A DNA stretch of 64,000 nucleotides from Melioribacteraceae bacterium (GTDB lineage: Bacteria; Bacteroidota; Ignavibacteria; Ignavibacteriales; Melioribacteraceae). The notes beneath the pieces are model-generated. The model did no database searches, was not told the origin of the DNA, and saw nothing but the letters and a program-made list of their open reading frames with translations. Below are positions 14,514-53,102 of the stretch, in pieces (within the stretch, counting starts at the first letter, position 1; each line of letters begins with the position of its first letter). Where the stretch lies: assembly GCA_021740785.1 (NCBI GenBank), contig JAIOZI010000012.1, positions 1 to 64,000 on the forward strand. Direction: 5' to 3'. Both the position numbers and the translations under genes were made by a program.

Positions 14514-14866
14514 TCTTCGTAAGATTATTATTTATGGAATAATTCTAAATTAGCTTACAAATGGATTGAAATCAATGAAGATAAATAAAATGTTTCACAA
14601 TGATTTCTTCCCAGACCCATTTTCTACAATCGGAAAAAGAATGAATATGTGAATATTTACCTAATTAGACGATGTTAGCTTGATAATAAAACCCTGGTAA
14701 ATGTTATTATGATTCTTAACCTAACCAATGTTTCATTTGATTTATGAGCCGAATCAAAAAAGCCTGATTTGAATATTTTTGATTTCGATTTTATTGCAAA
14801 ACCAAAGAATTTTGATAGTAATTTTACCTTTTTAGAGCAAGCTCATTTATTAATCTTACAAACACT
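14514..14866. other. Intergenic gap between two histidine kinase genes
   Basis: This 353-base AT-rich gap lies between two minus-strand kinase genes. I find no gene, no strong hairpin with T-run, and no match to the TAAA-N15-CGATAA pattern on either strand. Confidence 0.5.
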
Positions 14867-18660: not shown

Positions 18661-18687
18661 TAAAGTTTTGCTCTTTTTCTCCGATAA
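18661..18687 (+). promoter_or_regulatory. Sigma-28-type promoter before the 618-residue membrane protein
   Basis: TAAA at 18661-18664, 15 bases, TCCGATAA at 18680-18687, then T. It points toward the gene at 18893 with a leader of about 200 bases. It is arranged divergently with the minus-strand promoter at 18602-18628; their -35 elements are 32 bases apart. Confidence 0.65.
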
Positions 18688-18892: not shown

Positions 18893-20749
18893 ATGGAAGA
18901 AATATTGTCACTAGCCAATCAATATATAACATCTGAAAGCGAAGATTTTGAACAAATCAACAATAAGTTGATTGAATCTAAGTTTCGCAATATTTCAAAG
19001 AGAATCTTCAATACTGATACAATTCAAGATGTTGAATTTGTTGATTTTTTGAAGTACTCCTATAAATTTTTCTCATTAAATTTACCGTCAGAAATTGGGG
19101 AGTTGTTTATCAGTAAAGAAATAGCTCCGTATGTTTTGGTTGCAGATCACCCGGTATTTGTTTATGCGGAAGATTTAATTAAAAGCTTTTCAAAGACAGC
19201 AATTTACAGCTACGAGGAGACAAAAAAGTATTACTCAAAATGGCTGAATATTAAAAACGAAAAAGAGAAACAATACTTTGCACTCTCGACATTGAATTTA
19301 CTTGAGAAAGACCGGAGCAGTCAAAATTTCCTAAAGTATATATTATATGCAATAGTTCTTTCGTATGATAAGAGGATGTATTCTCCCGAAAAATCTATTA
19401 AAATGATGGAGCAAGCGATTGCCGTATTCCGCAGATTGAATATTAGCGATGAATATCGGAATGAAATAAATTATCTTTTATCTCTATATTATGGTTTCAT
19501 TCACTTAAGAAGATATGATCTTGAAAATGCAAATTCTAAATTTATTGATGCCGCAGTAATAAAATCGCACGGTATAAGTGCGCTCTTTTATAATGGATTG
19601 ATGGAAAATTTACTGGGAAAGTCCGATAAATCCATTGGACTGCTTTCAGAGGTTCTGTCGGTTGACAAAAGAAGAATTGGTTTTGCAATAAAAACTAATA
19701 ATCTTGGGTTATTCACATTCTTTACAAAAGCGACTATTTCTCAAAATATTTTTCGTGAAAAGGGATTTGTAAATATAGCCGAAGAATTGAATTACTTATT
19801 CAATTCATTCTTAAATGATGACGAAAGATTTTTTGCTCAACTGAATAATAAAATGAACGGGCTTGATCTCCTAAAAATTAAAGATTTTTATGATGATCAA
19901 ATTATAAGTGATTTAGAATTTATTAAAAAATTTATTACAAAATATGAACAGGATGATAACCTTTTTGTTCAATACTCGTATAATTTTATTGCTGAAAAAT
20001 TTAACAACATTCTCGATACAGCAAAAGCAAATATTAAGAAAAAATATCAGAATGAAATTACAGATGAAATAAGGGTTTATGACAATCAAATAAAATCTTT
20101 ACAAGACAAGATTACATATAAACAGAAAGAGGCTGAAGATGGAAATGCCGCACTCAACCAGCAACTAGAAAAATCACTCTCCCGGATAGATAAAGTGGTA
20201 AAAGAAAGAATTGATGAAATTGAATTTAAAATTGAACATCTGGAGCTGGATAAGAAATATGATCCGCGTAATACATTCAGTAGTTCATTAGTTAATACAC
20301 TTGTTATTTCTTTAATGGTCTTAACAATCGGCGGATTCGCTAACGGAATTATGAGCAACGGGGAAGTCTATAATGTTAGTGAAATAATTTCCGAAGTATT
20401 TATATCAGGAATGAAATGGGGATTGATAACCTTAGTTCTCGGAATAATAATATCATTTTTTTCATCAGTATCAGTAGTTTGGGACAGGTTGAATAATAAG
20501 CAAAGGCTATTAAAAGAAATAAGTTATTTAAAAAATTATAAAGAAAAGGAAATTTCGTCGTTAAAGACCGATGCAGAAAGAAAGAAAAAAGTTTTTCAAG
20601 AAAAAATAAAATCGAAAATTGAAAATCTTCAAAAGGAACTTGAATTTGTTAAACATGATAAAAATGAAAAGTTCGAGGAGTTTAATGAGAAGACCAGCGC
20701 AGAAATCAGTAACTATGAACAAGAAATAAGTGGACTATATTTAAATTAA
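18893..20749 (+). CDS. Coiled-coil membrane protein of unknown function
   Basis: I do not recognise this 618-residue protein. The N-terminal 340 residues are helical and TPR-like in spacing but without a clear consensus. A long coiled coil rich in K, E and Q runs at about 365-450. Two membrane segments follow, near 463-487 (LVISLMVLTIGGFANGIM) and 506-529 (WGLITLVLGIIISFFSSVSVV), and the C-terminal 85 residues are again a charged coiled coil (REISY-type heptads with many K and E). This predicts a hairpin in the membrane with both coils on the cytoplasmic side. It stands alone between divergent kinase and glycosyltransferase genes; the sigma-28-type promoter at 18661 suggests a motility-linked role, which is inference. 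Confidence 0.6.
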   Translation: MEEILSLANQYITSESEDFEQINNKLIESKFRNISKRIFNTDTIQDVEFVDFLKYSYKFFSLNLPSEIGELFISKEIAPYVLVADHPVFVYAEDLIKSFSKTAIYSYEETKKYYSKWLNIKNEKEKQYFALSTLNLLEKDRSSQNFLKYILYAIVLSYDKRMYSPEKSIKMMEQAIAVFRRLNISDEYRNEINYLLSLYYGFIHLRRYDLENANSKFIDAAVIKSHGISALFYNGLMENLLGKSDKSIGLLSEVLSVDKRRIGFAIKTNNLGLFTFFTKATISQNIFREKGFVNIAEELNYLFNSFLNDDERFFAQLNNKMNGLDLLKIKDFYDDQIISDLEFIKKFITKYEQDDNLFVQYSYNFIAEKFNNILDTAKANIKKKYQNEITDEIRVYDNQIKSLQDKITYKQKEAEDGNAALNQQLEKSLSRIDKVVKERIDEIEFKIEHLELDKKYDPRNTFSSSLVNTLVISLMVLTIGGFANGIMSNGEVYNVSEIISEVFISGMKWGLITLVLGIIISFFSSVSVVWDRLNNKQRLLKEISYLKNYKEKEISSLKTDAERKKKVFQEKIKSKIENLQKELEFVKHDKNEKFEEFNEKTSAEISNYEQEISGLYLN

Positions 20750-21162: not shown

Positions 21163-24100
21163 TTGAATAAAAGTCTGCTGAACACAGCTATTGAATCCTT
21201 TAAAATTTACGGTATGCTGCGTGTACGAAATGAATCCAAAATTATCTCAGATACTCTTGACCATATGGCGACATTTTGTAGCGGGGGTATTATTGTATAT
21301 GATGATTTTTCGGAGGATAATACAGTAGAAATTTGCAGGAAACATGCATCCATTCTCAAGGTTATTACAGGAAAATATTGGGATTCGAATAGAGCTAGAG
21401 CAGAATACGAAAATAGAGAGAATCTTCTAAAGGTAACGAAAGAATATGCAAAAGAAATCGATTGGCTTGTTTATCAGGATGCCGATGAACGAATTGATTT
21501 CGATTGGGCAAAACTAAAAGAGCTCGATAAAAGTGTAATTGCAATAAGGATGAAACTTTTTGATTATTACATTACTTCAGAGGATGTTTACGATAATTAT
21601 TCTCTACGTAAGTGGATAGGACCGGAGTATCGCGAAATAATTATGGCATTTCGCAACCTACCACACCTTTCTTATACATTACCTGATCAAAGGGAAGTTG
21701 GGCTTGGCAAAGAAGGGATTATACTGAATGAAGGATTTGTGAAGCATTATGGAAAGGCTATTTCTGTTGAGGATTGGGAAAAGAAATGTGATTACTATTC
21801 TGATCATTTCCCCATGTACTCTGAAAAATGGAGAAAAAGGAAGGGAAAAGCGGTTCATAATTTTGAATCGGATTTTGGTAGAAAATTGATTAAATGGGAG
21901 CAGAAAGAAGAACTTGGAATAAATCTTATGAAAGAAAATAACGAGTTAAAAATAAATAGAAAATTGAACATTCTTATTGCCACTCATCATCTTAACGGTT
22001 ATACCGGTTCGGAGATTTTAACAAAGACATTAGCTGTTGCTTTAAGAAGAAATGGTCATAAAGTCACAGTTTATTCAAAGTACATTGATAAAATCAGAAC
22101 TGAATTTGAACGTTTTGGAATCAAACTCACTGACGATTTGGCATCAATAAAGAATGAAAAGTTTGATATTGCTCATGTGCATCATAATATAAATGCTATT
22201 GAAATACGATATTATTTTCCAACTCTTCACATTGTATTTTATTCACAGGGAGTTTTACCCTTTTTAGAGCAACCACCGATTATAGATTTAGGAATTAAAA
22301 AATATTTAGCACTAAGCGAAGAAATAAGAGACAATCTGATCTCGAAAGGAGTCAAATCAAGCGAAATTGAAATTATTAGGAATTTTGTCGATCAAGATCT
22401 ATTTCATTCCCAAAATGAAATCAGCAGTATACCACGTAACGTTCTTGTAATCAGCGGAAGACTAGATACGCTGAGGGAAAATATTATTAAACGTTCATGT
22501 GAAAGAGCAGGATTAAATTGCAAATTTGTTGGTGGTAGACACGAAAGTGTTGAGCAAAAAAAACTTATCGAACTTATTAAACAATGCGATATCGTATTCT
22601 CACTGGGTCGAGGAGCAATCGAAAGTATGATGTGCGGTCGAGTTACGATAATTTATGATTATCTCGGCGGCGATGGAATGGTTACACCGGATACTTTTGA
22701 TGAGATAAAGAAAAACAATTTTTCAGGGAGGAGATTTCATTATGAATATAATGAAGAAGAGTTGATTGCAGAATTAAAAAAATATCATAAGGAATTTGGA
22801 GCTATAATTAGACAGAAAATAATAGAGGAATACTCGATCGATTCTGTGATTCCCAAATTACTGAAGCTTTATTATGAGACCATTGAATCACCATTGCTCC
22901 CAACATCAAATAGTAATAAAGAAATGGAATTTTGTATTAATACTGTTAATGAAACTAGAAACTATTCTTATGATTTAGGGCGAAGACACTTTCGCAGTGA
23001 ATTGAAAAATTTTATGGAAGTTGAAAAAATTATAAATATTGCTGAAGATTTGATAAACCGAAACAATCTCGAAAGTGCAAAACAAATCCTAAGAGTCCTC
23101 AATTTTGTCCATATAGAGAATGTTATGGTACTGAATAATTTAGCAAGCATCAGCATAATTCAAAGTGATTATGAATCAGCTATAAAGTATTTAGAAGAAG
23201 TGATTCGCTTTGATGCAAACAATCAAATAGCAATTGACAATTTGAAGTTGCTAAAAAACAAATTAAGTGGAAATTTGAATATTAACGAGAGTGAAATGGA
23301 AAAAACGGAAATTAAAGATTCGCAGAATGAAAATACAGGCAATTTCAGCAAGGAATTAATCAACGCCGAAGAACTGCTGGGAAATGGGAACTTTAGTGAA
23401 GCCCGTGAAATTCTTGAAAAAATACTGGAGGAGGATTCAACTAACCTGGATGCAATGAATGATCTTGCTGTATTAAATATAATGCAAAATGATTTTGTTA
23501 CAGCAAAGAACTTCATACAGCAAATTTTCAAAATTGATCCGAGTAATGAAGTAGCAATCGATAATTGGAATTATTTGAACCAGCGGGCATATGTTAATGA
23601 CGACGTTCAAAATGAGCTAGGTGCCGTGATTTTGGATATTGAGAATAAATTGAAAGAAGAGCGATTTGACGATGTACTAACAACAGCTGCTCCGATATTG
23701 GAACAGGTGAACTTGGATAGTAGATATGAAAAAATTGCATGTCCGTTTTGTGGCAGTATAAATGCATTGGCTGTTAGGCATGCTGCCGATATTGTGAAGT
23801 GTGCGGATTGTGAAGTTGTCTATTTAAGATATAGGTTGAAGAAAGAAGAAATGTACAAACTATATCAGTCCTATGCTAAAGAGGATTCGCACATGGCATT
23901 GCCGAAAAACAATGAGCAGATAAAGTTGAGCCCGCTCAGAAGAGATTATTTTTTAAGTGAAATTATTAAATTTACTAAACCAACCGGTGTTCTTCTAGAT
24001 GTAGGTTGCGGGTGGGGCGGTTTTCTCGACAATGCCAGGGACAAAGGATTTATTCCTGTTGGAATTGAGATGACGAAAGATTGTGTTGATTTTGCAAATG

Positions 24101-24564
24101 ACGTGTTAAAAATTAAGGTTACAAATGAACAGTTTGAGGATACTCCATTTGATGATAATTCTATTTCGGTAATATCCATGAATCATGTTTTGGAGCATCT
24201 TCCATACCCGCTTAAAGTATTGAGGAAAATGAGTAGAATCCTTAAACGAGGCGGCTTATTTGCCGGAATGGTTCCGAACTTCAACAGTTATGTTTCAAAT
24301 ACACTAAAAGATAATTGGTACTGGCTCGATCCAAATTATCATTATGTTCATTACACACCTCAAACACTCCAAAGACAACTGGAAAAGGTTGGATTCGTTG
24401 TTGAAAAATTATATACAGCTACAGGTGATTATGGGCGCGATAATGTTACAAAAATTTTAATGAAAGATGGAAATGTTGATGTAAATAATGTTTTGTCTGA
24501 ATTAAATAAAATCGAAGAGATGGGTATGGGTGAAGAGATAAGGTTTATTGCAAGAAAACAATAA
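21163..24564 (+). CDS. Multidomain glycosyltransferase-methyltransferase (GT2, GT4-like, TPR, SAM methyltransferase)
   Basis: This 1133-residue protein has four parts. About 14-230 is a GT2-like transferase with RVRNESKIISDTL, YDDFSEDNT and QDADERIDF (the DxD-type motif). About 268-560 is a GT4-like GT-B fold with THHLNGYTGSEI, HVHHN and GRGAIESMMCGR. TPR-like repeats follow at about 620-850. The end is a class I methyltransferase: a zinc ribbon with CPFCG and CADC near 860-885, then LLDVGCGWGGFLDNA near 945 and MNHVLEHLPYPL. The TTG start at 21163 has AGGA 6 bases upstream. It opens a glycosyltransferase cluster that runs to two flagellin genes, so glycosylation and methylation of a flagellin glycan is a fair inference; surface polysaccharide is the alternative. 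Confidence 0.8.
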   Translation: MNKSLLNTAIESFKIYGMLRVRNESKIISDTLDHMATFCSGGIIVYDDFSEDNTVEICRKHASILKVITGKYWDSNRARAEYENRENLLKVTKEYAKEIDWLVYQDADERIDFDWAKLKELDKSVIAIRMKLFDYYITSEDVYDNYSLRKWIGPEYREIIMAFRNLPHLSYTLPDQREVGLGKEGIILNEGFVKHYGKAISVEDWEKKCDYYSDHFPMYSEKWRKRKGKAVHNFESDFGRKLIKWEQKEELGINLMKENNELKINRKLNILIATHHLNGYTGSEILTKTLAVALRRNGHKVTVYSKYIDKIRTEFERFGIKLTDDLASIKNEKFDIAHVHHNINAIEIRYYFPTLHIVFYSQGVLPFLEQPPIIDLGIKKYLALSEEIRDNLISKGVKSSEIEIIRNFVDQDLFHSQNEISSIPRNVLVISGRLDTLRENIIKRSCERAGLNCKFVGGRHESVEQKKLIELIKQCDIVFSLGRGAIESMMCGRVTIIYDYLGGDGMVTPDTFDEIKKNNFSGRRFHYEYNEEELIAELKKYHKEFGAIIRQKIIEEYSIDSVIPKLLKLYYETIESPLLPTSNSNKEMEFCINTVNETRNYSYDLGRRHFRSELKNFMEVEKIINIAEDLINRNNLESAKQILRVLNFVHIENVMVLNNLASISIIQSDYESAIKYLEEVIRFDANNQIAIDNLKLLKNKLSGNLNINESEMEKTEIKDSQNENTGNFSKELINAEELLGNGNFSEAREILEKILEEDSTNLDAMNDLAVLNIMQNDFVTAKNFIQQIFKIDPSNEVAIDNWNYLNQRAYVNDDVQNELGAVILDIENKLKEERFDDVLTTAAPILEQVNLDSRYEKIACPFCGSINALAVRHAADIVKCADCEVVYLRYRLKKEEMYKLYQSYAKEDSHMALPKNNEQIKLSPLRRDYFLSEIIKFTKPTGVLLDVGCGWGGFLDNARDKGFIPVGIEMTKDCVDFANDVLKIKVTNEQFEDTPFDDNSISVISMNHVLEHLPYPLKVLRKMSRILKRGGLFAGMVPNFNSYVSNTLKDNWYWLDPNYHYVHYTPQTLQRQLEKVGFVVEKLYTATGDYGRDNVTKILMKDGNVDVNNVLSELNKIEEMGMGEEIRFIARKQ

Positions 24565-24575
24565 TTAATAAATGG

Positions 24576-27500
24576 ATGATTAATAAAGTGAAAATAACTG
24601 CATCAATAATAATTCCCGTATATAACAATTATTTTTATACTGAAAAGTGTATTAAAGCAGTATTGGAAAATTCAGGCGATGAAATTGATTATGAAATAAT
24701 TGTTGTAGATAATGATTCAACTGATCAAACCTCTTTCGAAATTAATAAAATGCAGGGTGAGATCCGATCATTGAATTATTTTAAGCTGGATAGTAATTAT
24801 GGGTTTGGTTATGCATGTAATTACGGTGCCGAAAAAGCACGCGGCAAATATTTGGTTTTCTTAAATAATGATACCGAGCCTTTAAAAGATTGGTTATTTA
24901 ACGCAATCAATAGTTTTAAGCTAAGTAATCGTATTGGAATTGTTGGATCAAAATTATTATACCCGGATTACACAATTCAGCATTGCGGCATACAATTTTT
25001 TAAAGATGTAAATCCACACTTTAAATTTTGGCCGTTACACAGATTTATGGGTAAGCCCGCTGATTATCCACAGGCAAATAAACCTGAAATAGTAAGAGCA
25101 GTGACCGGGGCATGTTTATTTATAGCCAAAGAACTTTTTAATGAAGTAGGGGGTTTTGATCTAACATATAAAATGTACTTCGAAGACACTGATCTAAATT
25201 TCAAAGTAAAAGCTCGAGGATATAATTCTTTTTATCAGCCAGCCTCAGTTGTAATTCATCACGAAGGCAAATCATCAGCGAATCAAGAGGTAGTCGACAT
25301 TCTAAATGCAGAATCTGCAAAAGTATTTTATGAAAAGTGGAAAAAGGAAATAAATATAATCGAGGAGATAGAAGAGTATATATTAGAGTATGATGAAAAT
25401 ATAACAATTCTATCAGATAATATTTATCCCAAAAATTTAATCACATATCCTGAAAACGGACCCGCTGTAATTGATTTGGAACTCTTCAAAAAATTTATTT
25501 TGCGGTTCTTAATCCTCGGTAAAGCATATTATCACTTCGGAGGTGCAGGAGATGCGCTTCTTTTATTATCAACTTTTTATGATGAGAACCCAAATCAAAT
25601 TATAATAAGTTTTACAAATTCAACTGCTGCATTAAAAAGCTTTTTCAAGTCATTCCGAGATCTGAAACATGTATATATGGTAAAAATTCCAGATGATCCC
25701 TTTATTCATAGCAATCTCAGAAAACTGCTCCCGGAATTCAACAATTTTCTAGGTATGGGCGTAACACCATCAAAACCTTATGAATTTGAATGGTTTCATG
25801 GGTTAGATATTTTTACCAAATATGGTATAAAAAAACATCCTGAATGGATAAATATTTTTAGAAATCGTGAACGGAACAATTATGATGTAATAATTGCACC
25901 TAGGGGAAGTGTGCTCGGGATGTATAAATCTAAAAAGAATATTATTGATCCATCAATCTGGTCGGATTTAATAAATTATTTAAATAGGAAAGGGATAGTT
26001 CCTGCAGTGATTGGAACTCCTGATGAAGATGAATTTTATCCATTAATAGGTAAAACAATTAATAAACGAAGCTATTCCTTTTCTGACCAAATGAGCCATA
26101 TTGCTAAAAGCAAAATACTTATAGGTGCAGATTCATGGGCAAAAACTTTTTCTGCTTTAGCAGGTATTGCTACTATCGTTTTCGAGCCCATAAAGGGAAA
26201 AGACCTCGATGGTTGGAAAGATAGTTCTGATTATGTTTTTATTGAACCATGGAATGAGATTAAGGTTGTTAAAAATTTCGATGAATTTAAAAATATATTT
26301 AGTGAATTATATCAGGAATCTGAAAGTGCAGTTGAATCTCAATCAAAAACTGATGTGGATAATGATGAACCAAAGGTTAGCTCTATTGCAATAGATTCGA
26401 ATTATCAACTAATCTGGAATTCCCCGATATATGACAATAGCGGGTATGCGGATGAATCCAGAAATTTTGTGTTAGGTTTACATGAAGAAGGCGTCGATTT
26501 AAAACTAAATCCAATAACCTGGAGTAATTCAGAAGCTCAATTACCGGTTCAAACTTTGAAATTATTTGATTCGCTTTGCAGTGTAAAACTAAACGAGAAT
26601 AAGGAGAAAATAAATGTATCGCATTTATTCGCACCCTTTTTTATTAAGCGAAAGGATAGTTACAATATAGGGCGAACTATGTATGAGACGGATACAATAC
26701 CTAATGACTGGATAATTAAATGCAATGAGATGGATGAAGTTTGGGTCCCGAGTGAATTCAATATTAATTCTTTTGAAAAAGCCGGTGTTAATAAAAACAA
26801 ACTTTTTAAGATCCCCGAAGCTATTGACACTGATCTATTTAATCCTAAAGGTGAAGTTATAGAAGAGATATCTTCTATTAAGGGTTTTAAATTTTTATCA
26901 GTATTTGACTGGACTTTGCGTAAAGGCTGGGACGTATTGATAAAAGTATTTACGGAATTGTATGGAGATAACCCGGATGTGAAATTAATTTTAAAAGTCT
27001 GGTCTTCGTACGGCAAATCAATCAACGAGATAAAAAATGATATAGAAACTTTTCTTAATAAAAATAATTTGAGTGAAGACATACCGAAAAATATAATTTT
27101 CTTTTCAAAGACAATTCCTGTTGAAGAAATGCCTGCATTGTACAGATCAGTAAATGCCTACGTCTCTCCGAATAGAGGTGAAGGATGGGGCAGACCTCTG
27201 ATAGAATCAATGGCATCCGGAATTCCAGTGATAACGACTCGCTGCACTGGTCAATTGGAATTCATGAATAACAATAACTCGTTTCTTATCAATAATAAAA
27301 AGGTTCTGGTACCGGAGGAAGCGGTCAAAGAATTGAATATATTAAAAGGTCACTCATGGTTTGAGCCATCAGCTGAACATCTAAAGAAATTAATGAAAAC
27401 GGTCTATGAAAATCCGAATTTAGTCCAAGCCAAAGTTCAGCAAGGAATTGAAGATATTCAAACAAAATTCAACAGAAAAAGCGTGGCTAAACTTATAAAA

Positions 27501-29087
27501 CAGAGATTAGATAAAATATCGAGGCATCTTGCAGTACGTGATGTAAAAATTCTTTGGAATGGAAATTTTGATTACAATTCCTCTTTAGGGATTGTCAATA
27601 ATCATATGTCAGCTTCCTTGAAAAATTTGGGAGTAAATGTTAATACTCCATTAGACAAATCTAATTCAAATGTTGAGTTAAAGTCTGAAGCTCATCTCGA
27701 TGAACAAAAGGTAATAAATGTGCGGCATTCTTGGCCGCCAGATTTAACTCCTCCATCAAAGGGTTATTGGGTGGTAATCCAGCCCTGGGAATTCGGTAGT
27801 CTCCCGGAAAAATGGATAGAAACATTTGAATATGAAGTTGATGAAATTTGGGTTCCTAGTAATTACGTAAAAGAATGTTTTATTGAAAGCGGGGTAAACT
27901 CAGATAAGGTGAAAGTAATCCCGAATGGATTCGATCCGAATATTTTTAATAAACATGCAAAACCTTTCACACTAAAAACCAAAAAGAAATTTAAATTCTT
28001 GTATGTGGGTGGAACAATATATAGAAAAGGTATTGATATACTTATTGAAACGTATTTAAAAACATTTAATAATGATGACGATGTCTGCCTTGTAATTAAG
28101 GATATGGGAGGAGATTCATTTTATAATGGTCGCAATATTAATCGGGATAAATTGGATTTACTTAGGAATAAAAATTATCCGGAAATTGAGTATGTAGATA
28201 AATTTCTTACCCCGAATGAATTGGCAGGAACATATAGATCTTGTGATGTTTTGGTTCACCCATATAGAGGGGAAGGATTTGGATTACCAATTCTGGAATC
28301 TATGGCCTGTGGTACACCAGTGATTGTAACAAACGGTGGGGCTTGTTTAGATTTTTGCAATTCTCAAAATAGTTTTTTAACCAAAGCAGAGAAAATTATT
28401 CTGAATAAAAAAATGGTTGGCGATCTGGCTACAGTCGATTTTCCTTGGCTTTTGGAGACCAACAAGAATGAGTTGGCAATCAATATGAAGCAGGTGTTTG
28501 ATAATCAGTCATCTCTAAAAGCTAAATCTCATTTTGCCTATGAATCAGTGCATGAAAATTTTACATGGAATAATTCCGGAATGAAAATTTTTGAAAGAAT
28601 TCTAGAATTAAAAGAAAAAAATATCATCAGATATCATAATAATCTAAAACCTAAAAGCGCTATTACAAGTATTCTTGATCAAGCAAATAAATTATTAGTA
28701 GATGAAGATTATGAGAATGCCCTAATAACCTTAGATAAATTATTAACTCACCATGAGGATTATAACTTCAAGGATAGTAAAATTGGTTTGGACAAGTTAT
28801 TTCAATTAGCTGGTAAAATAGCTAATGCTGCCGGTGATTTACAAAAATCGAATTCGTATTTCGAAAAGTTACTTGAACTGAATCCGAACTCGTCTGAAGC
28901 TTGTGCCGGACTGGGTGAAAATCTTTACATGCTCGGTAATTTAGAAGCCTCAAAAACAATGCTTGAGTGGGCGATTAATTTCGACTCAAATAATGAACTG
29001 CTTTTACAGAAGCTTGCAATTGTAAACGAAGAATTAAACTTGGACTCTGCTGATAATTCACTGTTAAAAGAACAAGAACAACTTTAA
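24576..29087 (+). CDS. Multidomain glycosyltransferase (GT2, GT9-like, two GT4, TPR)
   Basis: This 1503-residue protein appears to join four glycosyltransferase units. About 6-260 is GT2 with IIPVYNN, VDNDSTDQT and a conserved GACLFIAKELFNEVGGFD. About 305-585 looks like a GT-B fold of the GT9 type (HFGGAGDALLLL, IIAPRGSVLG, GADSWAKTFSALAG), a weaker call. Two GT4 domains follow at about 605-965 and 985-1345, each with its EX7E motif (EGWGRPLIE near 868; EGFGLPILE near 1232). TPRs occupy about 1365-1495. It lies 11 bases after the preceding fusion gene. The ATG at 24576 has no good ribosome site; a GTG at 24588 is possible. One chain may build several sugars in order, which is inference. Confidence 0.82.
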   Translation: MINKVKITASIIIPVYNNYFYTEKCIKAVLENSGDEIDYEIIVVDNDSTDQTSFEINKMQGEIRSLNYFKLDSNYGFGYACNYGAEKARGKYLVFLNNDTEPLKDWLFNAINSFKLSNRIGIVGSKLLYPDYTIQHCGIQFFKDVNPHFKFWPLHRFMGKPADYPQANKPEIVRAVTGACLFIAKELFNEVGGFDLTYKMYFEDTDLNFKVKARGYNSFYQPASVVIHHEGKSSANQEVVDILNAESAKVFYEKWKKEINIIEEIEEYILEYDENITILSDNIYPKNLITYPENGPAVIDLELFKKFILRFLILGKAYYHFGGAGDALLLLSTFYDENPNQIIISFTNSTAALKSFFKSFRDLKHVYMVKIPDDPFIHSNLRKLLPEFNNFLGMGVTPSKPYEFEWFHGLDIFTKYGIKKHPEWINIFRNRERNNYDVIIAPRGSVLGMYKSKKNIIDPSIWSDLINYLNRKGIVPAVIGTPDEDEFYPLIGKTINKRSYSFSDQMSHIAKSKILIGADSWAKTFSALAGIATIVFEPIKGKDLDGWKDSSDYVFIEPWNEIKVVKNFDEFKNIFSELYQESESAVESQSKTDVDNDEPKVSSIAIDSNYQLIWNSPIYDNSGYADESRNFVLGLHEEGVDLKLNPITWSNSEAQLPVQTLKLFDSLCSVKLNENKEKINVSHLFAPFFIKRKDSYNIGRTMYETDTIPNDWIIKCNEMDEVWVPSEFNINSFEKAGVNKNKLFKIPEAIDTDLFNPKGEVIEEISSIKGFKFLSVFDWTLRKGWDVLIKVFTELYGDNPDVKLILKVWSSYGKSINEIKNDIETFLNKNNLSEDIPKNIIFFSKTIPVEEMPALYRSVNAYVSPNRGEGWGRPLIESMASGIPVITTRCTGQLEFMNNNNSFLINNKKVLVPEEAVKELNILKGHSWFEPSAEHLKKLMKTVYENPNLVQAKVQQGIEDIQTKFNRKSVAKLIKQRLDKISRHLAVRDVKILWNGNFDYNSSLGIVNNHMSASLKNLGVNVNTPLDKSNSNVELKSEAHLDEQKVINVRHSWPPDLTPPSKGYWVVIQPWEFGSLPEKWIETFEYEVDEIWVPSNYVKECFIESGVNSDKVKVIPNGFDPNIFNKHAKPFTLKTKKKFKFLYVGGTIYRKGIDILIETYLKTFNNDDDVCLVIKDMGGDSFYNGRNINRDKLDLLRNKNYPEIEYVDKFLTPNELAGTYRSCDVLVHPYRGEGFGLPILESMACGTPVIVTNGGACLDFCNSQNSFLTKAEKIILNKKMVGDLATVDFPWLLETNKNELAINMKQVFDNQSSLKAKSHFAYESVHENFTWNNSGMKIFERILELKEKNIIRYHNNLKPKSAITSILDQANKLLVDEDYENALITLDKLLTHHEDYNFKDSKIGLDKLFQLAGKIANAAGDLQKSNSYFEKLLELNPNSSEACAGLGENLYMLGNLEASKTMLEWAINFDSNNELLLQKLAIVNEELNLDSADNSLLKEQEQL

Positions 29088-29120: not shown

Positions 29121-29843
29121 ATGGAAAAAATCAATAAGATGCTAAGGGATGCATACCGGTTATTTTATGAAAAGCATTTCAATGAATCTCTGGAGAGATT
29201 AAAAAAACTCGAGATTTTATTCGAAGATTCGCAAAAGGATCACAAGAAAAAAGATTATATGCTGTCTAGCCTTTATAATTTTATGGGATTTAATTACCTG
29301 GCTTTGGATAAACTAAAGGATAGTAAAACCGTGTTTGAAAAAGCGCTTAATCTTTATCCTGCTTCATCTCAAGCTTGCGCCGGCTTGGGTGAAATTCTTT
29401 TTTTAGTAAATATGGATCGTGAATCAAAAACTATGTATGAATGGGCTTTGTACAATAATCCTAAAAACAAATTCGCACTTTCGGGGTTGGCTAAAGTAAA
29501 TCTTCAACTTGAATATCCGTTGGAGCATAATTCCCTAACACAAAAACCGAATGAAATTGAAGAGAAACGCTTGGATGAATTATTTAAAAAAGCATTTTCT
29601 TTTTTACAGGAAAAGGAATTCCGGCAGGCATTGGAAGTAATTGAAATGGTTCAATCTGATACGGAGAAAACATTACGAGATTTTGAATTGCTGCTCTCGG
29701 AATTACTGGGAATGAAGGGATTTGCATTGCTAGGTCTTAATGATATGGAAAATGCTAAGCATTCTTTTGAAATTGCTCTAAGTCTAAATCCCGAATCTGC
29801 ATTGGCAGAAAGTCTTTTAGAACATAAATTTTCCGATGTATAG
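29121..29843 (+). CDS. TPR protein related to the tail of the upstream glycosyltransferase
   Basis: This 240-residue soluble protein is built of TPR units (about 35-110 and 155-235). Residues 75-130, including ACAGLGEILFLV and SKTMYEWAL, match the C-terminal TPR block of the preceding gene (ACAGLGENLYML, SKTMLEWAI) almost position for position, so it looks like a detached copy of that block. It starts 33 bases after the glycosyltransferase stop, with AGGAGT before the ATG. A role as a scaffold or adaptor for the glycosyltransferases is possible; no catalytic motif is present. Confidence 0.75.
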   Translation: MEKINKMLRDAYRLFYEKHFNESLERLKKLEILFEDSQKDHKKKDYMLSSLYNFMGFNYLALDKLKDSKTVFEKALNLYPASSQACAGLGEILFLVNMDRESKTMYEWALYNNPKNKFALSGLAKVNLQLEYPLEHNSLTQKPNEIEEKRLDELFKKAFSFLQEKEFRQALEVIEMVQSDTEKTLRDFELLLSELLGMKGFALLGLNDMENAKHSFEIALSLNPESALAESLLEHKFSDV

Positions 29844-29873: not shown

Positions 29874-31409
29874 GTGCCGCGATTATCATTAAGTATGATT
29901 GTAAAAAATGAAAGCAATAACTTGGAAAAATGTCTCTCTTCTGTAAAGGATCTCGCAGATGAGATTGTTATTGTTGATACAGGATCTACAGATAACACCA
30001 AAGACATTGCAAGTAAATTTACAAGCAGGATTTATACGTATGAATGGGATAATGATTTCTCGGCAGCGCGGAATTTCGCACTTGGAAAATGCACCGGCAA
30101 CTGGGTACTCTATCTTGATGCTGATGAATACATTGATTCTAATTCTGTAGAGATGTTAAAATCTATTATCAATAAGCAGGAAAAGCTGGGAGTGAAATGC
30201 TTAATTGAGAATAAGGATGACTTCAATAACAAACCGATGCTCCAAAAATACACAAGGTTATTTACTAGAAGCGATGCAGTCAAATTCAGCGGAAAGGTAC
30301 ATGAGCAAATAGATGATTCGCTAATTAAGAACGGATATAGATTTGTTGATACGAATATCAAAATCATTCACACTGGTTATAACCAAAACAAAGATATATT
30401 GATTGAGAAAGCCCGGCGGAATTTAGATTTATTGTTAAGTGATTATGAAAATAACGGCTCATCTTATTATGATTTTCAAATCGGCAATACTTATAAATTG
30501 CTTGAAGAAAATGATAAAGCCGCAGTATATTATCACCGGGCGTTTACTTCCGAAGACCTGAATAAAGAATACAGGGCACTCTCCAGTTTGCATATAGTTT
30601 CGTCATTACTTGATAATCTTCAAATTTCTGAAGCATTGGAGATTATTAAAAAAGGGATTGCATTGGATTCTACACAGCCTGTTTTATATTTGGCTGCAGC
30701 TGATGTGTTTTTCAGATCAGGCAATGTTCAGCAGGCTATCGAGTATTCTTTAACATCAATAAAAAAGAATAAATTGTTAAAACAATCCGAAACGATAAAT
30801 GGAGAATTAAAGATTTTAGCTGATGAACTTCAACTCATCACGTTTGGGATGTATATTTGTCTCGAATCAAACTTGGATTATAATCTTCAGTTGTTAAAAA
30901 AAGAATTGCGTATTGTAAAAAATTATTCCTTCGATAGTATCCAAATTGATTCTATTGAATTAATTGAAAAACTACTTGAGGGTAAAGCTGACATTGATGC
31001 AATTGAAAAAGAAGGGAAAAGCCTATTAAAAGAAAACTACTTGAATTTCCTAACATCGGTTTCGAAGAAAATTGAAAATCCTGACGATAGGAAAACGTAT
31101 TTAAAATTATTAAACAATCATTTTCCTGATGATGTAAAAATATTAATTAGACTTGGAAATTTATTTGAAGCCGAAGGGGATGTGACGGAAGCTATTGAGA
31201 AATATGAGGCGGGTTTACAAAAAGACAATATCGATCCGGCTTTAATTTTTTATTTGCTTTCTGCATACATAAAAATGAATGAGTTTGAAAAAATTCCGGA
31301 GTTAATAGAAAAGGCAGAACAGGATTTCGGGTTGGTTCCTGAAGTAATGAATAAACTAAATGCAGTAAAACAGAAACTGTCCGGGTTCTATGAATCAATG
31401 GTAAATTAG
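29874..31409 (+). CDS. GT2 glycosyltransferase with C-terminal TPR repeats
   Basis: This 511-residue protein has a GT2 domain at about 1-220: SLSMIVKNESNNLEKCL, IVDTGSTDNT near 35, WDNDFSAARNFAL, and LYLDADEYID near 82, the nucleotide-sugar-binding DxD-type motif. This arrangement is the one found in transferases that glycosylate peptides or start glycan chains. The remaining residues are helical TPR-like repeats, e.g. AEGDVTEAIEKYEAGLQKD near 440. The GTG start at 29874 has GGAG 7 bases upstream. It is the last gene before the flagellins, about 140 bases upstream of flagellin 1, so flagellin is a plausible acceptor. Confidence 0.85.
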   Translation: MPRLSLSMIVKNESNNLEKCLSSVKDLADEIVIVDTGSTDNTKDIASKFTSRIYTYEWDNDFSAARNFALGKCTGNWVLYLDADEYIDSNSVEMLKSIINKQEKLGVKCLIENKDDFNNKPMLQKYTRLFTRSDAVKFSGKVHEQIDDSLIKNGYRFVDTNIKIIHTGYNQNKDILIEKARRNLDLLLSDYENNGSSYYDFQIGNTYKLLEENDKAAVYYHRAFTSEDLNKEYRALSSLHIVSSLLDNLQISEALEIIKKGIALDSTQPVLYLAAADVFFRSGNVQQAIEYSLTSIKKNKLLKQSETINGELKILADELQLITFGMYICLESNLDYNLQLLKKELRIVKNYSFDSIQIDSIELIEKLLEGKADIDAIEKEGKSLLKENYLNFLTSVSKKIENPDDRKTYLKLLNNHFPDDVKILIRLGNLFEAEGDVTEAIEKYEAGLQKDNIDPALIFYLLSAYIKMNEFEKIPELIEKAEQDFGLVPEVMNKLNAVKQKLSGFYESMVN

Positions 31410-31448: not shown

Positions 31449-31475
31449 TAAACTTCAGAAAAGTACCTCCGATAA
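31449..31475 (+). promoter_or_regulatory. Sigma-28-type promoter of flagellin 1
   Basis: TAAA at 31449-31452, 15 bases, TCCGATAA at 31468-31475, then T. It lies about 75 bases before the flagellin ATG, the expected place for a class III flagellar promoter. Confidence 0.85.
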
Positions 31476-31551: not shown

Positions 31552-32445
31552 ATGTCATTTCGTATCAACACAAACATCGGAGCATTACAAGCATACAATG
31601 CTCTAGCCAAGGTAAACAAAGAAACCTCAACGGCACAACTAAGATTAGCAACACAAAAAAGAATAAACAGCGTTGCTGATGATACTTCAGGTTTTGCAGT
31701 TGGAAAATCTTTGGATCAAAAGGTGAAATTGATGCAGGCTGCACAAAATAACGTCGGATCGGCTAAAGATATGCTGGCAACTGCAGAGTCTCAGCTTATC
31801 AGTGTAAAAGATCTTATTACTGATATCCGAACAAAGATCGCAGATGCTAGCAACCCTGCTGCTGATAAAGAAAGACTATCTGATGACGTTAAAGCTCTTG
31901 CCGAAGAAATTGGAAACATCTTCTCAGGTACTAAATTTAATGATACAAGTTTGTTAGTATCTGCTGCAACAGGCGGCGCACAATCAAACTTCACATTCCA
32001 GACGGGTGTAACATCAAGCGATACTCTTTCAGTTAATTATGCTAGCGGCTTGGTAGGCGCTACTGACCTCGCTATTGGAGATGTCAGCGTATCTGCATCG
32101 GTTAGCGCTGCAGTATCAGATGCAATCAGTGAGATAGATGGTTGGACGTCTGCTTCTGTAACCGCATCTGATTTCACAACACTCGAAACAAATTTGGATA
32201 CTTTTGAAGATGCTGTTGATGATTCACTTTCCAAAATCGGTAACTTATCTCAAAGGTTGGATGTGAAAGATGAGTTCCTAACATCCGCTATTTCAAATTC
32301 TCAAGCATCGGTTTCAAGGCTGTTTGATGCAGATATGGCAATGGAGCAATTAAATGCAACGAAGGGACAGATTTCCGGTCAAGTTGCAACATCTATGCTT
32401 GCACAGATGAACATGGCTCCACAAAACATTCTAAGCCTTTTCTAA
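31552..32445 (+). CDS. fliC: Flagellin 1
   Basis: This 297-residue flagellin forms the filament. The N-terminal D0/D1 helices start FRINTNIGALQAYNAL and include LRLATQKRINSVADDTSGFA. The C-terminal helices include DMAMEQLNATKGQISGQVA and end in MAPQNILSLF. The middle (about 145-220) is short and rich in S, T and A, so the variable outer domains are small. It has a strong ribosome site (GGAGG, 7 bases before the ATG), its own sigma-28-type promoter and a terminator. It is nearly identical in its helices to the next flagellin. Confidence 0.97.
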   Translation: MSFRINTNIGALQAYNALAKVNKETSTAQLRLATQKRINSVADDTSGFAVGKSLDQKVKLMQAAQNNVGSAKDMLATAESQLISVKDLITDIRTKIADASNPAADKERLSDDVKALAEEIGNIFSGTKFNDTSLLVSAATGGAQSNFTFQTGVTSSDTLSVNYASGLVGATDLAIGDVSVSASVSAAVSDAISEIDGWTSASVTASDFTTLETNLDTFEDAVDDSLSKIGNLSQRLDVKDEFLTSAISNSQASVSRLFDADMAMEQLNATKGQISGQVATSMLAQMNMAPQNILSLF

Positions 32446-32468: not shown

Positions 32469-32499
32469 AAAGACCCGTCATTTGGCGGGTCTTTTTTTT
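32469..32499 (+). terminator. Rho-independent terminator after flagellin 1
   Basis: A perfect 9-base stem (AAAGACCCG at 32469-32477 and its complement at 32486-32494) with an 8-base loop, continuing into a run of eight T (32492-32499). Confidence 0.9.
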
Positions 32500-32813: not shown

Positions 32814-33716
32814 ATGTCTTCAACATTTCGAATCAACACTAACCTTGGGGCATTGCAGGCTTACAATGCTTTAGCAAAGGTTAACAAGGAAACTGCGACG
32901 GCGCAGTTAAGGTTGGCAACGCAAAAAAGAATAAACAGTGTTGCCGATGACACATCTGGTTTTGCTGTTGGAAAATCACTCGACCAGAAAGTAAAATTAA
33001 TGCAGGCTGCACAGAACAATGTCGGTTCAGCAAAAGATATGCTGGCAACGGCGGAATCACAACTTGTAAGTGTAAAAGATCTTATTACTGAAATAAGAGC
33101 TAAAATTGCAGATGCAAGTAATCCTGCTGCCGATAAAGAAAGATTGTCTGATGACGTTAAGGCTCTTGCTGAAGAAATCGGCAATATCTTCTCAGGAACA
33201 AAATTTAATGATACCAGTTTGCTGGTTTCAGCAGCAACCGGTGGCGCTCAATCAGATTTTACATTCCAAACCGGAGTTTCTTCTAGTGATACACTTAAAG
33301 TAGATTATGCAAGCGGTTTGGTTGGAAGTACCGATTTGGCTATCGGAGATGTTAGTGAAACAGCCTCTGTCAGCGCTGCTGTATCTGCTGCACTTAGTGA
33401 AATAGATGGCTGGACGTCTGCTTCTGTAACTGCTTCTGATTTCACAACGCTCGAAACAAACTTGGATACTTTTGAGGGTGCAGTTGATACCTCTTTATCA
33501 AGTATCGGTAATTCGCTTCAGAGATTGGATGTTAAGGATGAATTCCTAACTGCTGCTATCTCAAATTCACAAGCTTCTGTTTCTAGACTGTTTGATGCTG
33601 ATATGGCAATGGAACAACTGAATGCAACAAGGGGACAAATATCCGGACAAGTTGCAACTTCAATGCTTGCACAGTTGAACATGTCGCCGCAGAATATTCT
33701 CAGTCTATTCGGTTAA
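32814..33716 (+). CDS. Flagellin 2
   Basis: This 300-residue flagellin differs from flagellin 1 at few positions; the N-terminal 140 residues and the C-terminal helices are almost identical, and changes cluster in the S/T-rich centre (e.g. SETASVSAAVSAALSEIDG). AAAGGAGAA lies just before the ATG. With its own promoter and terminator it is a separate transcript. It is probably a tandem duplication of flagellin 1; which is the major subunit cannot be told from sequence. Confidence 0.96.
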   Translation: MSSTFRINTNLGALQAYNALAKVNKETATAQLRLATQKRINSVADDTSGFAVGKSLDQKVKLMQAAQNNVGSAKDMLATAESQLVSVKDLITEIRAKIADASNPAADKERLSDDVKALAEEIGNIFSGTKFNDTSLLVSAATGGAQSDFTFQTGVSSSDTLKVDYASGLVGSTDLAIGDVSETASVSAAVSAALSEIDGWTSASVTASDFTTLETNLDTFEGAVDTSLSSIGNSLQRLDVKDEFLTAAISNSQASVSRLFDADMAMEQLNATRGQISGQVATSMLAQLNMSPQNILSLFG

Positions 33717-33789: not shown

Positions 33790-34131
33790 ATGAATAATGC
33801 TGCATTATCATATGGTTATCAAAATCTTTCGAAGCGATATCAGGTAAATGAAATTTTAGAAGCATCTCCTGAAAAGCTGCTCCTTAAAGTTTATGACTTT
33901 GCTATTGTAAACAGTAAGAATGAAAATTTGGCTAAAACAAATAAGGCTCTTCAAGTGCTTATTGATGCATTAAGATTTGACACTGATGAATTGAGAGAAG
34001 TTTCTACAGGATTATTAAGACTATACAAGTTCTGCCAAGACCAAATGAGAGAAGGTAATTACGAAATTGTTTCAAAAGTTCTTCAGGATCTCAAAAGTTC
34101 ATGGCTGGAAGCATTTTCACAAAAACAATAA
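33790..34131 (+). CDS. fliS: Flagellar export chaperone FliS
   Basis: This 113-residue helical protein of the usual FliS length binds the flagellin C-terminus in the cytoplasm and delivers it for export. Typical features are the N-terminal YQNLSKRYQVNEILEASPEKLLLKVYDFAI and a C-terminal helix ending LKSSWLEAF. The gene lies between flagellin 2 and fliD, as in many bacteria. TGGAGT precedes the ATG by 10 bases. Confidence 0.9.
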   Translation: MNNAALSYGYQNLSKRYQVNEILEASPEKLLLKVYDFAIVNSKNENLAKTNKALQVLIDALRFDTDELREVSTGLLRLYKFCQDQMREGNYEIVSKVLQDLKSSWLEAFSQKQ

Positions 34132-34145
34132 ATTGATGAGTAAAC

Positions 34146-36005
34146 ATGGACGTTTTATCAACCTCAGGTATTAACTCCTTAATCACTTCTTATAGGAGTG
34201 CGGAATTTAAGAAGCGAATCTATCCGCTGCGGACCAGGGTGGATAAGTATGACAATTTATCATCTGCTTATAGTAATCTTTCCGCTAAATTATCTGATTT
34301 GAAAAATGTTCTTGATGATTTGAAATTAACCGGGTCAGATTCAAAATTTTCTCAGAAAACTTCAACTTCTTCAAATGATTCTTTTATTACTTCCACTGCA
34401 ACTAGTTCAGCATCGACCGGTACCAACTCCGTACGAGTCAACTCGTTGGCTCATTCGGATCTGGTTTTTTCAACTACTTTAGGATCTGATCTGGCAAATG
34501 GAATAACCGAAGGAGTTCATTCTTTCAGAGTAAGAAGCGGTGTTTACGAAACTAATATCGAAGTAACTGCTGGAACGGGTGAAACGAATGCCACCTTGAT
34601 GGAAAAAATTAATGATGCGGTGTACGGCAGGACCAAAGCAAAGGTATTATCAGCAGAGAAAACTGCAGCCGGTGCATTTACAATGGATGCAACCAATAAT
34701 ACATTCGATATTACAGTTAATGATACAACAACCACCGTTACAATTGATTCGAGTGAATGGGCCGGGATAACCGATTATAATTCACTCATGGATGTGCTGG
34801 TATCAAACATTAATGATCAAGTTGATGGAGTAATAACCGAAAAGGTCTCAGACAATACTGCCGGAACCGTAAGGTTATCCATCAAGAGCAGCAATTCTTC
34901 AGATTTAATAACACTTAACAGTACGGGATTAGATGGTTCCGGGAACAAGATCTCCGCCGGTAATTTATTGATGGATGATCTGGGTATTACTGCATATAAT
35001 GAAAAAGCTGCAACTGCTGTTCTTAATACATCTGTTTTCGCGCCAACAAGCGGTGAATCAAAAATATCATTTACTGCGGTGAATTCAGGTTATGAAAATC
35101 GCCTAATTTTTGAATCAAGTGAACTCTTGAATAATTTAGGGCTAACTTCCGATGTTCTGTCTAACCGTTATAAAAATAGCGATGATGGAACTTCTGTTAA
35201 TAATGATAAAGCTGGATTTGCATACGGTACAAAGTGGCTCGATGTATCTTTAATAGAACAAGGAACAGCAGAAAGTACTACTAATAATAACCTTGATGCC
35301 GAAATTGAATTCAACGGAATTAGTATTAGAAGAGATTCAAATACGATTAGTGATTTAGTGACCGGTGTGACTTTTACACTTAATAATGTTATGGAAGCAG
35401 CAGATGAAGATGTTAATATTACAATCGCAAATGATGTTGACGCAATTAAAAGTGATCTGGAAGAATTTATTTCAAAATTTAACTCTGCTTATTTTTACAT
35501 AAAAGATAATATGGGAATTAGTAATGATGTTCGATTGCCGTTTACATCAAATTCCTATGCTACCTCGTTATTAAATACTTTTAACTCATTCGCCTATGGT
35601 GAAGTTGCGGGAATTACTAATCAGGACATTAATTCATTATTGGAAATCGGGATTTCATTCGATATTAATTCCGGACTGTCAATTTCATCTTCGAGTACCC
35701 TTGAAGATAAACTGGCGGGGAATCTAACCGATGTTGAAGAATTATTTAATTCAACATCGGGAATTGCATCTTCTTTATATGATGCGCTTGATCCATATTT
35801 AGGAACGGACGGGTACCTCGCAACATCTACGGAATCACTTGCTAATAATTCAAAATATCTTGACGACAGAATTACATCAATGGAAACACGTATTGATAAA
35901 AGTGCATCAGTGCTTAGGAAAAGATATGAGGGATTACAGCAGCAATTAATTTCTTTGATGAATATGCAGAATATGTTTAGTCAATTTACCGGAGGCATGT
36001 TTTAG
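34146..36005 (+). CDS. fliD: Flagellar filament cap FliD (hook-associated protein 2)
   Basis: This 619-residue cap protein promotes flagellin polymerisation at the filament tip. The N-terminal FliD_N region has GINSLITSYRSAEFKKRIYPL, and the C-terminal region ends in a coiled coil, RITSMETRIDKSASVLRKRYEGLQQQLISLM, followed by MFSQFTGGMF. The central domains are S/T/N-rich. The gene is 14 bases after fliS and 3 bases before a small helical protein, so it is part of a fliS-fliD operon. FlgK and FlgL, the usual junction proteins, are not in the window. Confidence 0.93.
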   Translation: MDVLSTSGINSLITSYRSAEFKKRIYPLRTRVDKYDNLSSAYSNLSAKLSDLKNVLDDLKLTGSDSKFSQKTSTSSNDSFITSTATSSASTGTNSVRVNSLAHSDLVFSTTLGSDLANGITEGVHSFRVRSGVYETNIEVTAGTGETNATLMEKINDAVYGRTKAKVLSAEKTAAGAFTMDATNNTFDITVNDTTTTVTIDSSEWAGITDYNSLMDVLVSNINDQVDGVITEKVSDNTAGTVRLSIKSSNSSDLITLNSTGLDGSGNKISAGNLLMDDLGITAYNEKAATAVLNTSVFAPTSGESKISFTAVNSGYENRLIFESSELLNNLGLTSDVLSNRYKNSDDGTSVNNDKAGFAYGTKWLDVSLIEQGTAESTTNNNLDAEIEFNGISIRRDSNTISDLVTGVTFTLNNVMEAADEDVNITIANDVDAIKSDLEEFISKFNSAYFYIKDNMGISNDVRLPFTSNSYATSLLNTFNSFAYGEVAGITNQDINSLLEIGISFDINSGLSISSSSTLEDKLAGNLTDVEELFNSTSGIASSLYDALDPYLGTDGYLATSTESLANNSKYLDDRITSMETRIDKSASVLRKRYEGLQQQLISLMNMQNMFSQFTGGMF

Positions 36006-52502: not shown

Positions 52503-53102
52503 GTGAAGAATTTAATAACATATATTTTGGTGTTCTTTATGGCATTCATGTTTGTCACATCCGGCATCGTTTATCTAAATCAAAAGTATGTGAATATATT
52601 CAAATTCGACTTCCGGGAAGCTGAAGCAAAAAGGGTTAGTGAATTAAGAAAATTATCAGCAAATGATTTTATGAAAATCCGGGAAGCTGTATATACTCAA
52701 ATTAAATCGGAATTAGATGAATCGAAAAAGGATGATACAAAGGTATCTATCGATTCGACATATTTAACAACGATGAATGAAAACGTATCAAAGATTGATA
52801 AACTTTCGGAGGAGTTTAATAAAATAGCGCAGTTGAGAAAAGATAATTCTCAAAAGGACAAAAAAATAAAGGAATTGGAATCGCAGAGTAAGATACGCCA
52901 GGATAGTATTTATAATGAATGGGTTAAAGCAACAGTGAAATTATATGAGTCTATGGATTCAAAAGATGCAGCTAAATTTATTCAGAAATATTCCGATAAT
53001 GTTGCTAGAGACTTAATATATACAATGAAAAAGAAAAAAGCTGCTGCAATACTTAGTAATCTAAACCCGGATATGGTTATAAATCTTACAAAGGCTCAAT
53101 AA
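52503..53102 (+). CDS. MotE/FlbB-like membrane protein with MgtE-N-like C-terminus
   Basis: This 199-residue protein has one N-terminal membrane helix (about 5-26), a coiled coil (about 85-145) and a C-terminal helical domain like the N-domain of MgtE and MotE: SKDAAKFIQKYSDNVARDLIYTMKKKKAAAILSNL. Such proteins between fliJ and fliK support stator or collar assembly in other bacteria (MotE, FlbB). The GTG start at 52503 follows GGGGA. It overlaps the fliK start by one base (TAATG). Confidence 0.75.
   Translation: MKNLITYILVFFMAFMFVTSGIVYLNQKYVNIFKFDFREAEAKRVSELRKLSANDFMKIREAVYTQIKSELDESKKDDTKVSIDSTYLTTMNENVSKIDKLSEEFNKIAQLRKDNSQKDKKIKELESQSKIRQDSIYNEWVKATVKLYESMDSKDAAKFIQKYSDNVARDLIYTMKKKKAAAILSNLNPDMVINLTKAQ

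Follow-up and report, generated by a model that had tools for sequence, protein, structure and literature searches.

A probable flagellin-glycosylation locus with giant multimodule glycosyltransferases and a shared tetratricopeptide-repeat tail in the Melioribacteraceae and related bacteria

Flagellin glycosylation islands have been described in Geobacillus (PMC5109656), Enterobacteriaceae (PMC4875605), Aeromonas (PMC7874193), and Clostridium (PMC13317340). TPR (tetratricopeptide repeat) domains figure in two flagellin transferases: the N-terminal one of Caulobacter FlmG binds flagellins and confers specificity (PMC7591256), and that of Listeria GmaR has been proposed to recognize flagellin (PMC9638930). 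Fusions of glycosyltransferases (GTs) with methyltransferases are also in print, in WsaE of Geobacillus stearothermophilus (PMC2943079) and A064R of chlorovirus PBCV-1 (PMC9614988); what we state about all these systems follows excerpts of the cited papers. Here, we analyze a run of four genes upstream of the flagellins of a Melioribacteraceae bacterium (Bacteroidota, Ignavibacteria, Ignavibacteriales; assembly GCA_021740785.1) in positions 1 to 64,000 of contig JAIOZI010000012.1, the whole of which we call the window. We read it, with a probability of roughly 0.8, as a flagellin-glycosylation locus in which a 511-residue enzyme primes, two giants of 1133 and 1503 residues extend and modify, and a conserved TPR tail docks. 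The four genes, separated by gaps of 11, 33, and 30 bases, and the flagellin, FliS, and FliD genes that follow all point in the same direction:

21163..24564, + strand, 1133-residue protein, GT2-GT4-TPR-zinc ribbon-methyltransferase (Pfam, profiles, motifs)
23740..24408, + strand, zinc ribbon and class I S-adenosylmethionine (SAM) methyltransferase module of the 1133-residue protein (Methyltransf_23, 6.4e-25; motif I DVGCGWG)
24576..29087, + strand, 1503-residue protein, GT2-GT9-like-GT4-GT4-TPR tail (Pfam, profiles, motifs; ATG start)
25476..26420, + strand, GT9-like module of the 1503-residue protein (hhalign to GT9 profile)
28692..29039, + strand, conserved TPR tail of the 1503-residue protein (102 bits)
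29121..29843, + strand, 240-residue TPR protein (full tail at residues 12-130, 135 bits; partial second copy, 46 bits)
29874..31409, + strand, 511-residue GT2-TPR protein, candidate priming flagellin transferase (best solved match GmaR)
31449..31475, + strand, sigma-28-like promoter match before flagellin 1 (1 mismatch)
31552..32445, + strand, flagellin 1, 297 residues, presumed acceptor (33% Ser+Thr in the variable middle)
32469..32494, + strand, terminator-like hairpin after flagellin 1
32814..33716, + strand, flagellin 2, 300 residues (92% identical to flagellin 1)
33790..34131, + strand, FliS flagellin chaperone
34146..36005, + strand, FliD filament cap

The two long open frames were present as an earlier sequence-only reading had placed them (21163-24564 and 24576-29087, 11 bases apart). 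They do not lie directly before two flagellins, as it had also held, because the TPR gene at 29121-29843 and the GT2-TPR gene at 29874-31409 intervene. The GT genes are nevertheless directly linked to flagellin genes, as in a flagellin glycosylation island, and chemotaxis genes, FliF, FliG, and FliK lie farther downstream. None of the four proteins of the GT run carries a membrane-like segment (highest 19-residue hydropathy, 1.43). We do not attribute the pair of giants to chance, given the E values of their domains and the recurrence of similar loci across the order.

Like the published islands, the window locus combines variable GT and methyltransferase genes adjoining flagellin. Further likenesses are the GT41 enzymes with methyltransferase domains of the Enterobacteriaceae islands (194 strains; PMC4875605) and the GT2 enzymes with TPRs predicted to be flagellin transferases in Clostridium (PMC13317340). 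However, those islands hold 1 to 3 GTs each in Enterobacteriaceae and up to 5 per strain in Geobacillus, while here up to 13 catalytic-profile hits (three covering less than half of the profile) occur in one chain, the largest frame found (4710 residues, genome G055), and a TPR tail is held in common. FlmG is likewise a cytoplasmic flagellin transferase with a flagellin-binding TPR domain, but it has 596 residues, a single GT-B domain, its TPR at the N terminus, and pseudaminic acid as its sugar (PMC7591256). GmaR, a flagellin GlcNAc transferase of 637 residues, shares the GT2-then-TPR layout, and its GT2 is homologous to that of the 511-residue protein; it differs in its additional linker and MogR antirepressor domains, and the giants are not GmaR (PMC9638930). 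WsaE also joins a methyltransferase to two GTs, with a methyl cap thought to end the glycan, but it serves an S-layer glycan on a lipid carrier, has its methyltransferase at the N terminus and three domains in all, and no TPR is described for it in the excerpt, which lists the product of a separate gene, wsaA, as a TPR protein (PMC2943079). A064R is a GT-GT-methyltransferase chain shown to act sequentially and to add a terminal O-methyl group; it differs in its size (638 residues), its viral N-glycan, its other GT families, and its three domains, with no TPR described in the excerpt (PMC9614988). The literature already covers islands for flagellin glycosylation, flagellin transferases guided by TPRs, and fusions of GTs with methyltransferases; the giant form with shuffled modules and a shared tail did not turn up in any paper of the open-licence literature searched.

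The distribution of the tail supports the flagellin-glycosylation reading. This distinct TPR unit of ca. 118 residues (consensus NPxSSxACxGLGEV...EEAKTMFEWAVKNNPxN) was searched for with a model built from sequences of flagellin-bearing genomes, which gave 361 matches in the window and the loci fetched from relatives, forming a low and a high group with few matches at 70 to 90 bits; 84 copies scored at least 80 bits. Among 58 relatives of the family and order, mostly draft genomes, 42 of which had a Flagellin_N match, the tail was present in 40, that is, in 40 of the 42 with Flagellin_N and in none of the 16 without (Fisher p 1.9e-12, uncorrected for kinship). The two exceptions, G004 (88% complete) and G022 (87%), have a single Flagellin_N match apiece; the matched frames (428 and 424 residues) are of the size of the hook-associated protein FlgL and are probably that protein. 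In 29 of the 40 tail genomes the tail lay on a flagellin contig within ca. 20 kilobases (kb). The pattern extended to a sample of the phylum (up to 15 candidates scored per genome), where all 29 tail genomes among 296 fell within the 69 that had Flagellin_N (p 1.9e-21, kinship again uncorrected). Outside the order but within the class, 9 of 19 Flagellin_N genomes had the tail; beyond the class, none of 30 did. The tail is thus restricted to genomes with flagellin-type genes, as is expected of a flagellin glycosylation island.

Gene order points the same way. In 50 flagellin loci, the window included (loci, not genomes, several of them ended by contig edges), the tail was among the six nearest upstream frames in 36, and a homologue of the 511-residue protein was among the two nearest in 35. 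The best solved match of the latter is to a Protein Data Bank chain that bears the name GmaR (1.7e-35), with SunS next; the GmaR match spans residues 2-194, aligns the DxD region, and covers the GT2 part only, which carries a DAD motif and precedes a TPR region, as in GmaR. Such GmaR-like enzymes formed a group of 39 rows (Shimodaira-Hasegawa-like approximate likelihood ratio test, 99) on a 157-row tree that was built by a quick method and flagged by the program for long branches. The order giant, GmaR-like enzyme, flagellin, FliS, FliD recurs among the loci of relatives. As a separate observation, six genomes (at loci L113, L102, L107, L116, L117, and L060) have proteins of 1518 to 1720 residues with three TPR-GT9 units per chain, and these are the nearest frame upstream of flagellin, the position taken elsewhere by the GmaR-like enzyme.

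The giants themselves also follow flagellin. A search with the 1503-residue protein (up to 9 candidates scored per genome) matched 57 of the 58 relatives, and matched frames of at least 1000 residues occurred only in genomes with Flagellin_N. The sequence-only reading would have been contradicted by the same fusions in relatives lacking flagella; these were not seen in the 16 genomes without Flagellin_N, where the longest frame matched by this query among the candidates scored had 692 residues and the 1133-residue query matched only frames of 335 and 303 residues, in two genomes. Profiles derived from the window and its relatives then served to annotate flagellin flanks and some giant-bearing stretches. 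At the flagellin loci of the order (42, window included), 33 had a frame of at least 800 residues with at least two catalytic modules, TPR-GT9 proteins counted, spanning 810 to 4710 residues, and 30 had the tail. For 44 named loci with 10-kb flanks, from partly repeated genomes, the numbers were 19 and 16. Of 32 loci of other bacteria obtained by a flagellin search, 7 matched both flagellin profiles, and none of the 7 had a multimodule frame or the tail. All three sets count loci rather than genomes, several are ended by contig edges, and the control counts may be low since the module profiles were trained on this order. Outside the class, 5 of 15 flagellated genomes had multimodule frames of 928 to 1488 residues in their 20-kb stretches of the flagellin region, none of the frames with the tail; in some of these stretches the flagellin itself was cut off. 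GT-methyltransferase fusions beside flagellin were therefore rejected as a novelty, the Enterobacteriaceae islands having them as well (PMC4875605). At three loci outside the class (L231, L238, and L240), profiles of TPR, GT, and FkbM type hit frames of 974 to 1488 residues near flagellin genes. Within the class, no multimodule frame appeared in the stretches of four flagellated genomes that lack a strong tail (G093, G165, G097, and G320).

A Pfam search bore out the GT2, GT4-like, TPR, and methyltransferase modules that had been proposed for the 1133-residue protein. Its gene starts with TTG, with AGGA just upstream, and encodes a GT2 (residues 13-245; PF13704 at 22-116, 1.4e-9; DAD motif), a GT4 (270-599; PF13439 at 282-412, 1.2e-7), TPRs (ca. 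615-807, including PF14559 at 738-795, 7.3e-12), a zinc ribbon (860-883; CPFC at 860 and CADC at 880) N-terminal to the methyltransferase, and the methyltransferase itself (931-1082; Methyltransf_23, 6.4e-25). For the 1503-residue protein, Pfam upheld the GT2 (residues 10-254; PF00535 at 10-126, 2.3e-24), the two GT4s (709-972 and 1091-1332; two PF00534 stretches, 2.1e-33), and the TPRs (tail at 1373-1488; TPR_19 at 1418-1465, 1.2e-5), and the motifs expected were in place (NDT and EDTD in the GT2, E-x7-E in both GT4s). The GT9-like fold also claimed for it (301-615) drew no hit from Pfam at E values up to 0.1 and was supported with modest strength by profile comparison. Alone, the segment matched the GT9 module profile of neighboring loci, seeded on a segment that Pfam called Glyco_transf_9, with an hhalign probability of 51%; a three-sequence profile reached 91% (E 1e-6), versus at most 1% against the GT4 and GT2 profiles. 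For the GT-B fold, a single-sequence structure prediction had a predicted local distance difference test score (pLDDT) of 35 and was set aside in favor of this comparison.

Homologues of the GT9-like module (ca. 51% identical) were found in 2 other genomes among 164 searched in the order, in frames of 1345 residues (GT2-GT9-GT4-tail-tail) and 1941 residues (GT2-GT2-GT4-GT9-GT4-tail). Both loci go on with a homologue of the 511-residue gene, flagellin, FliS, and FliD, with an 889-residue TPR-GT9-GT4 gene interposed in G388. A plasmid search with the 1503-residue protein gave 10 records, none spanning 80% of the query.

Tails also occur as proteins of their own, with 1 to 5 copies in 141 to 719 residues, among them the 240-residue protein of the window. 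Among solved natural structures, the tail comes closest to the TPRs of O-GlcNAc transferase and SPINDLY, a degree of similarity also attained by generic TPRs. Of the 44 multimodule frames that do not belong to the TPR-GT9(-GT4) type, 27 had the tail, within 60 residues of the C terminus in 19 of the 27; all 12 of the 44 with at least 2000 residues had it. Frames of 2290 residues (G034) and 2574 residues (G009) fell below the tail threshold; they are single-module by our own profiles and multimodule by Pfam.

Module sets differ between genera, and the parts of a giant may stand alone. In G388 the counterparts of the 1133-residue protein are adjacent genes of 763 residues (GT2-GT4, 55% identical) and 455 residues (TPR-methyltransferase, 45%; 62% in the methyltransferase part), and its GT2-GT4 part forms a gene of its own (708 residues) in G017 and opens an 1809-residue giant in G047. 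A single chain is therefore not required, and of the proposal that an oligosaccharide is assembled on one scaffold for flagellin, the flagellin-glycan function is well supported by linkage (that of the tail), while the one scaffold holds only in part, the fused chains being present here and their parts being separate genes elsewhere. Counting only pairs from different genomes that BLAST aligned over more than 150 residues, the last GT2 before the TPR end had a mean identity of 54.6% (226 pairs), versus 30.9% for internal GT2s (854 pairs). A constant C-terminal GT2 was only partly borne out, given that the last GT2s fell mainly into two groups on the tree and that a GT4 precedes the tail in the 1503-residue protein of the window. 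One might go further and suppose that the flagellin of this class of bacteria is decorated by glycan synthases resembling assembly lines, that module content encodes the glycan, that a GT plus tail end docks to flagellin or to tail-only scaffolds, and that new glycans arise by shuffling of the upstream modules, in the manner of polyketide synthases; this we regard as speculative and rather unlikely.

Pfam searches of fifteen locus sequences (two being halves of one protein) added FkbM, TylF, and Methyltransf_24 modules, as well as radical SAM with B12-binding, polysaccharide pyruvyl transferase, and WbsX modules. The flagellin-locus giants of G009 (L104:8787-16511) and G034 (L064:10047-16919) both have radical SAM and B12-binding matches, the former together with a WbsX module and the latter with a polysaccharide pyruvyl transferase module, which by their domains suggests an unusual sugar modification. 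The giant of G055, a single frame (L080:638-6961 plus L079:2-7807) upstream of flagellin, has GT2, GT4, GT9, and methyltransferase hits and three tails.

Under the flagellin-glycosylation reading, the 511-residue enzyme would add the first sugar to Ser or Thr of flagellin in the cytoplasm, as its homology to GmaR suggests. The giants would then lengthen the glycan sugar by sugar through their GT2, GT9-like, and GT4 modules, the methyltransferase ending the 1133-residue protein would decorate it with a methyl group, and the tail, at the end of the 1503-residue protein and in the 240-residue protein, may hold the enzymes to flagellin, to the FliS-flagellin complex, or to each other. The middles of 138 flagellins (the same genomes partly repeated) had 31% Ser+Thr, versus 17% in the conserved ends; in 8 flagellins from other bacteria the middles had 20%.

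Several observations weigh against this reading. A flagellin middle rich in Ser and Thr does not prove glycosylation, and TPRs serve many purposes. The tail is not universal, being found in 29 of 64 multimodule frames of at least 800 residues. Tail and flagellins lie on different contigs in 11 of the 40 tail genomes, and in G028 the tail sits in the middle of a 64-kb contig that is not the flagellin contig. Of the 9 tail matches in the class outside the order, 5 score below 80 bits, and four of these five sites have no flagellin in the 18 kb fetched around them. The fetched stretches of the four flagellin loci of G043 (L071, L072, L073, and L074) contain neither tail nor multimodule frame. In the window, no sugar-nucleotide gene was recognized among the 25 proteins scanned; sugar biosynthesis genes are common in flagellin glycosylation islands but not obligatory. 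The GT4 of the 1133-residue protein lacks the canonical E-x7-E at the expected place. The TPRs of this protein are generic (29 and 35 bits) and are not the tail, so that gene order is its one link to flagella.

Alternatively, the product of the giants might be a surface polysaccharide (an O-antigen, a capsule, or an exopolysaccharide), their place near the flagellins being due to chance or coregulation. Their GT2 and GT4 modules do resemble transferases for exopolysaccharide and lipopolysaccharide at the family level, although all far below the curated cutoffs, and separate GT2 frames of ca. 660 to 670 residues occur elsewhere in the genome of the window and in relatives. However, no polysaccharide export or polymerase gene was recognized among the 25 window proteins scanned, the gene order from giant to FliD recurs, and both the tail and the long frames go with flagellin-type genes. 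For this last reason we do not favor a role in lipopolysaccharide or capsule, and we consider a surface-polysaccharide product very improbable. Somewhat less so, but still improbable, is that other exported flagellar proteins (cap, hook, or hook-associated) are glycosylated instead of or besides flagellin; FliD and further flagellar genes do share the cluster, but the flagellins are nearest, and the characterized GmaR and FlmG act on flagellin in the excerpts cited above. The giants could also be mainly scaffolds in which certain modules lack catalytic activity, which would fit the missing E-x7-E and the existence of tail-only proteins, but the main motifs were found in the remaining modules inspected (GT2, GT4, and methyltransferase), and we give the idea hardly any weight.

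A more serious alternative concerns the methyltransferase. Rather than placing the methyl cap that the sequence-only reading had suggested, it may act on the nucleotide sugar or on the glycan to give a sugar that is C-methylated or modified in another way; we think this a real possibility, if the less probable one. TcaB9 C-methylates a sugar and has a zinc ribbon, and its layout has a C-terminal domain after the SAM domain. In a solved-structure search, residues 877-1080 of the 1133-residue protein matched TcaB9 (1.3e-5), the sole antibiotic-sugar-type methyltransferase among the matches, and zinc ribbon and SAM domain are both present here. The existence of a separate TPR-methyltransferase gene in G388 also suits a sugar-modifying role. 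On the other side, the match stops at residue 247 of 416 in TcaB9, and the 1133-residue protein ends 53 residues farther on, with no counterpart of the C-terminal domain. Other methyltransferases score better than TcaB9 or similarly, a glucose O-methyltransferase being a weak match (6.8e-4), and GT-methyltransferase fusions that O-methylate are known from WsaE (PMC2943079) and A064R (PMC9614988).

As for expression, sigma-28-like sites with at most 2 mismatches were in excess across the window (30 matches versus 11.1 expected), and none fell in the 400 bases preceding the start of the giant genes at 21163. Sigma-54-like sites were fewer than expected by chance (18 versus 22.7), and we therefore make no claim for the one at 21101. 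Elsewhere in the window, a 618-residue protein (18893-20749) has a hydrophobic segment, only a subthreshold Pfam match, and, at 18661, a sigma-28-like site; frames of similar size (ca. 610 to 650 residues) recur at many of the order's flagellin loci. Two long multi-PAS histidine kinases (1332 and 808 residues) lie upstream of the locus on the opposite strand (10515-17293), and the FliK-like frame (53102-57226, 1374 residues) looks unusually long, with its hook-length domain only at residues 1257-1329.

If the flagellin-glycosylation reading is correct, one could foretell from the architecture of a few genes what a flagellar glycan is composed of, and this lineage would let the gain, loss, and fusion of modules be read across genera. 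The system would offer a concrete test of whether chains of multiple GTs act in a set order, and the tail is a candidate flagellin-docking TPR with a recognizable signature.

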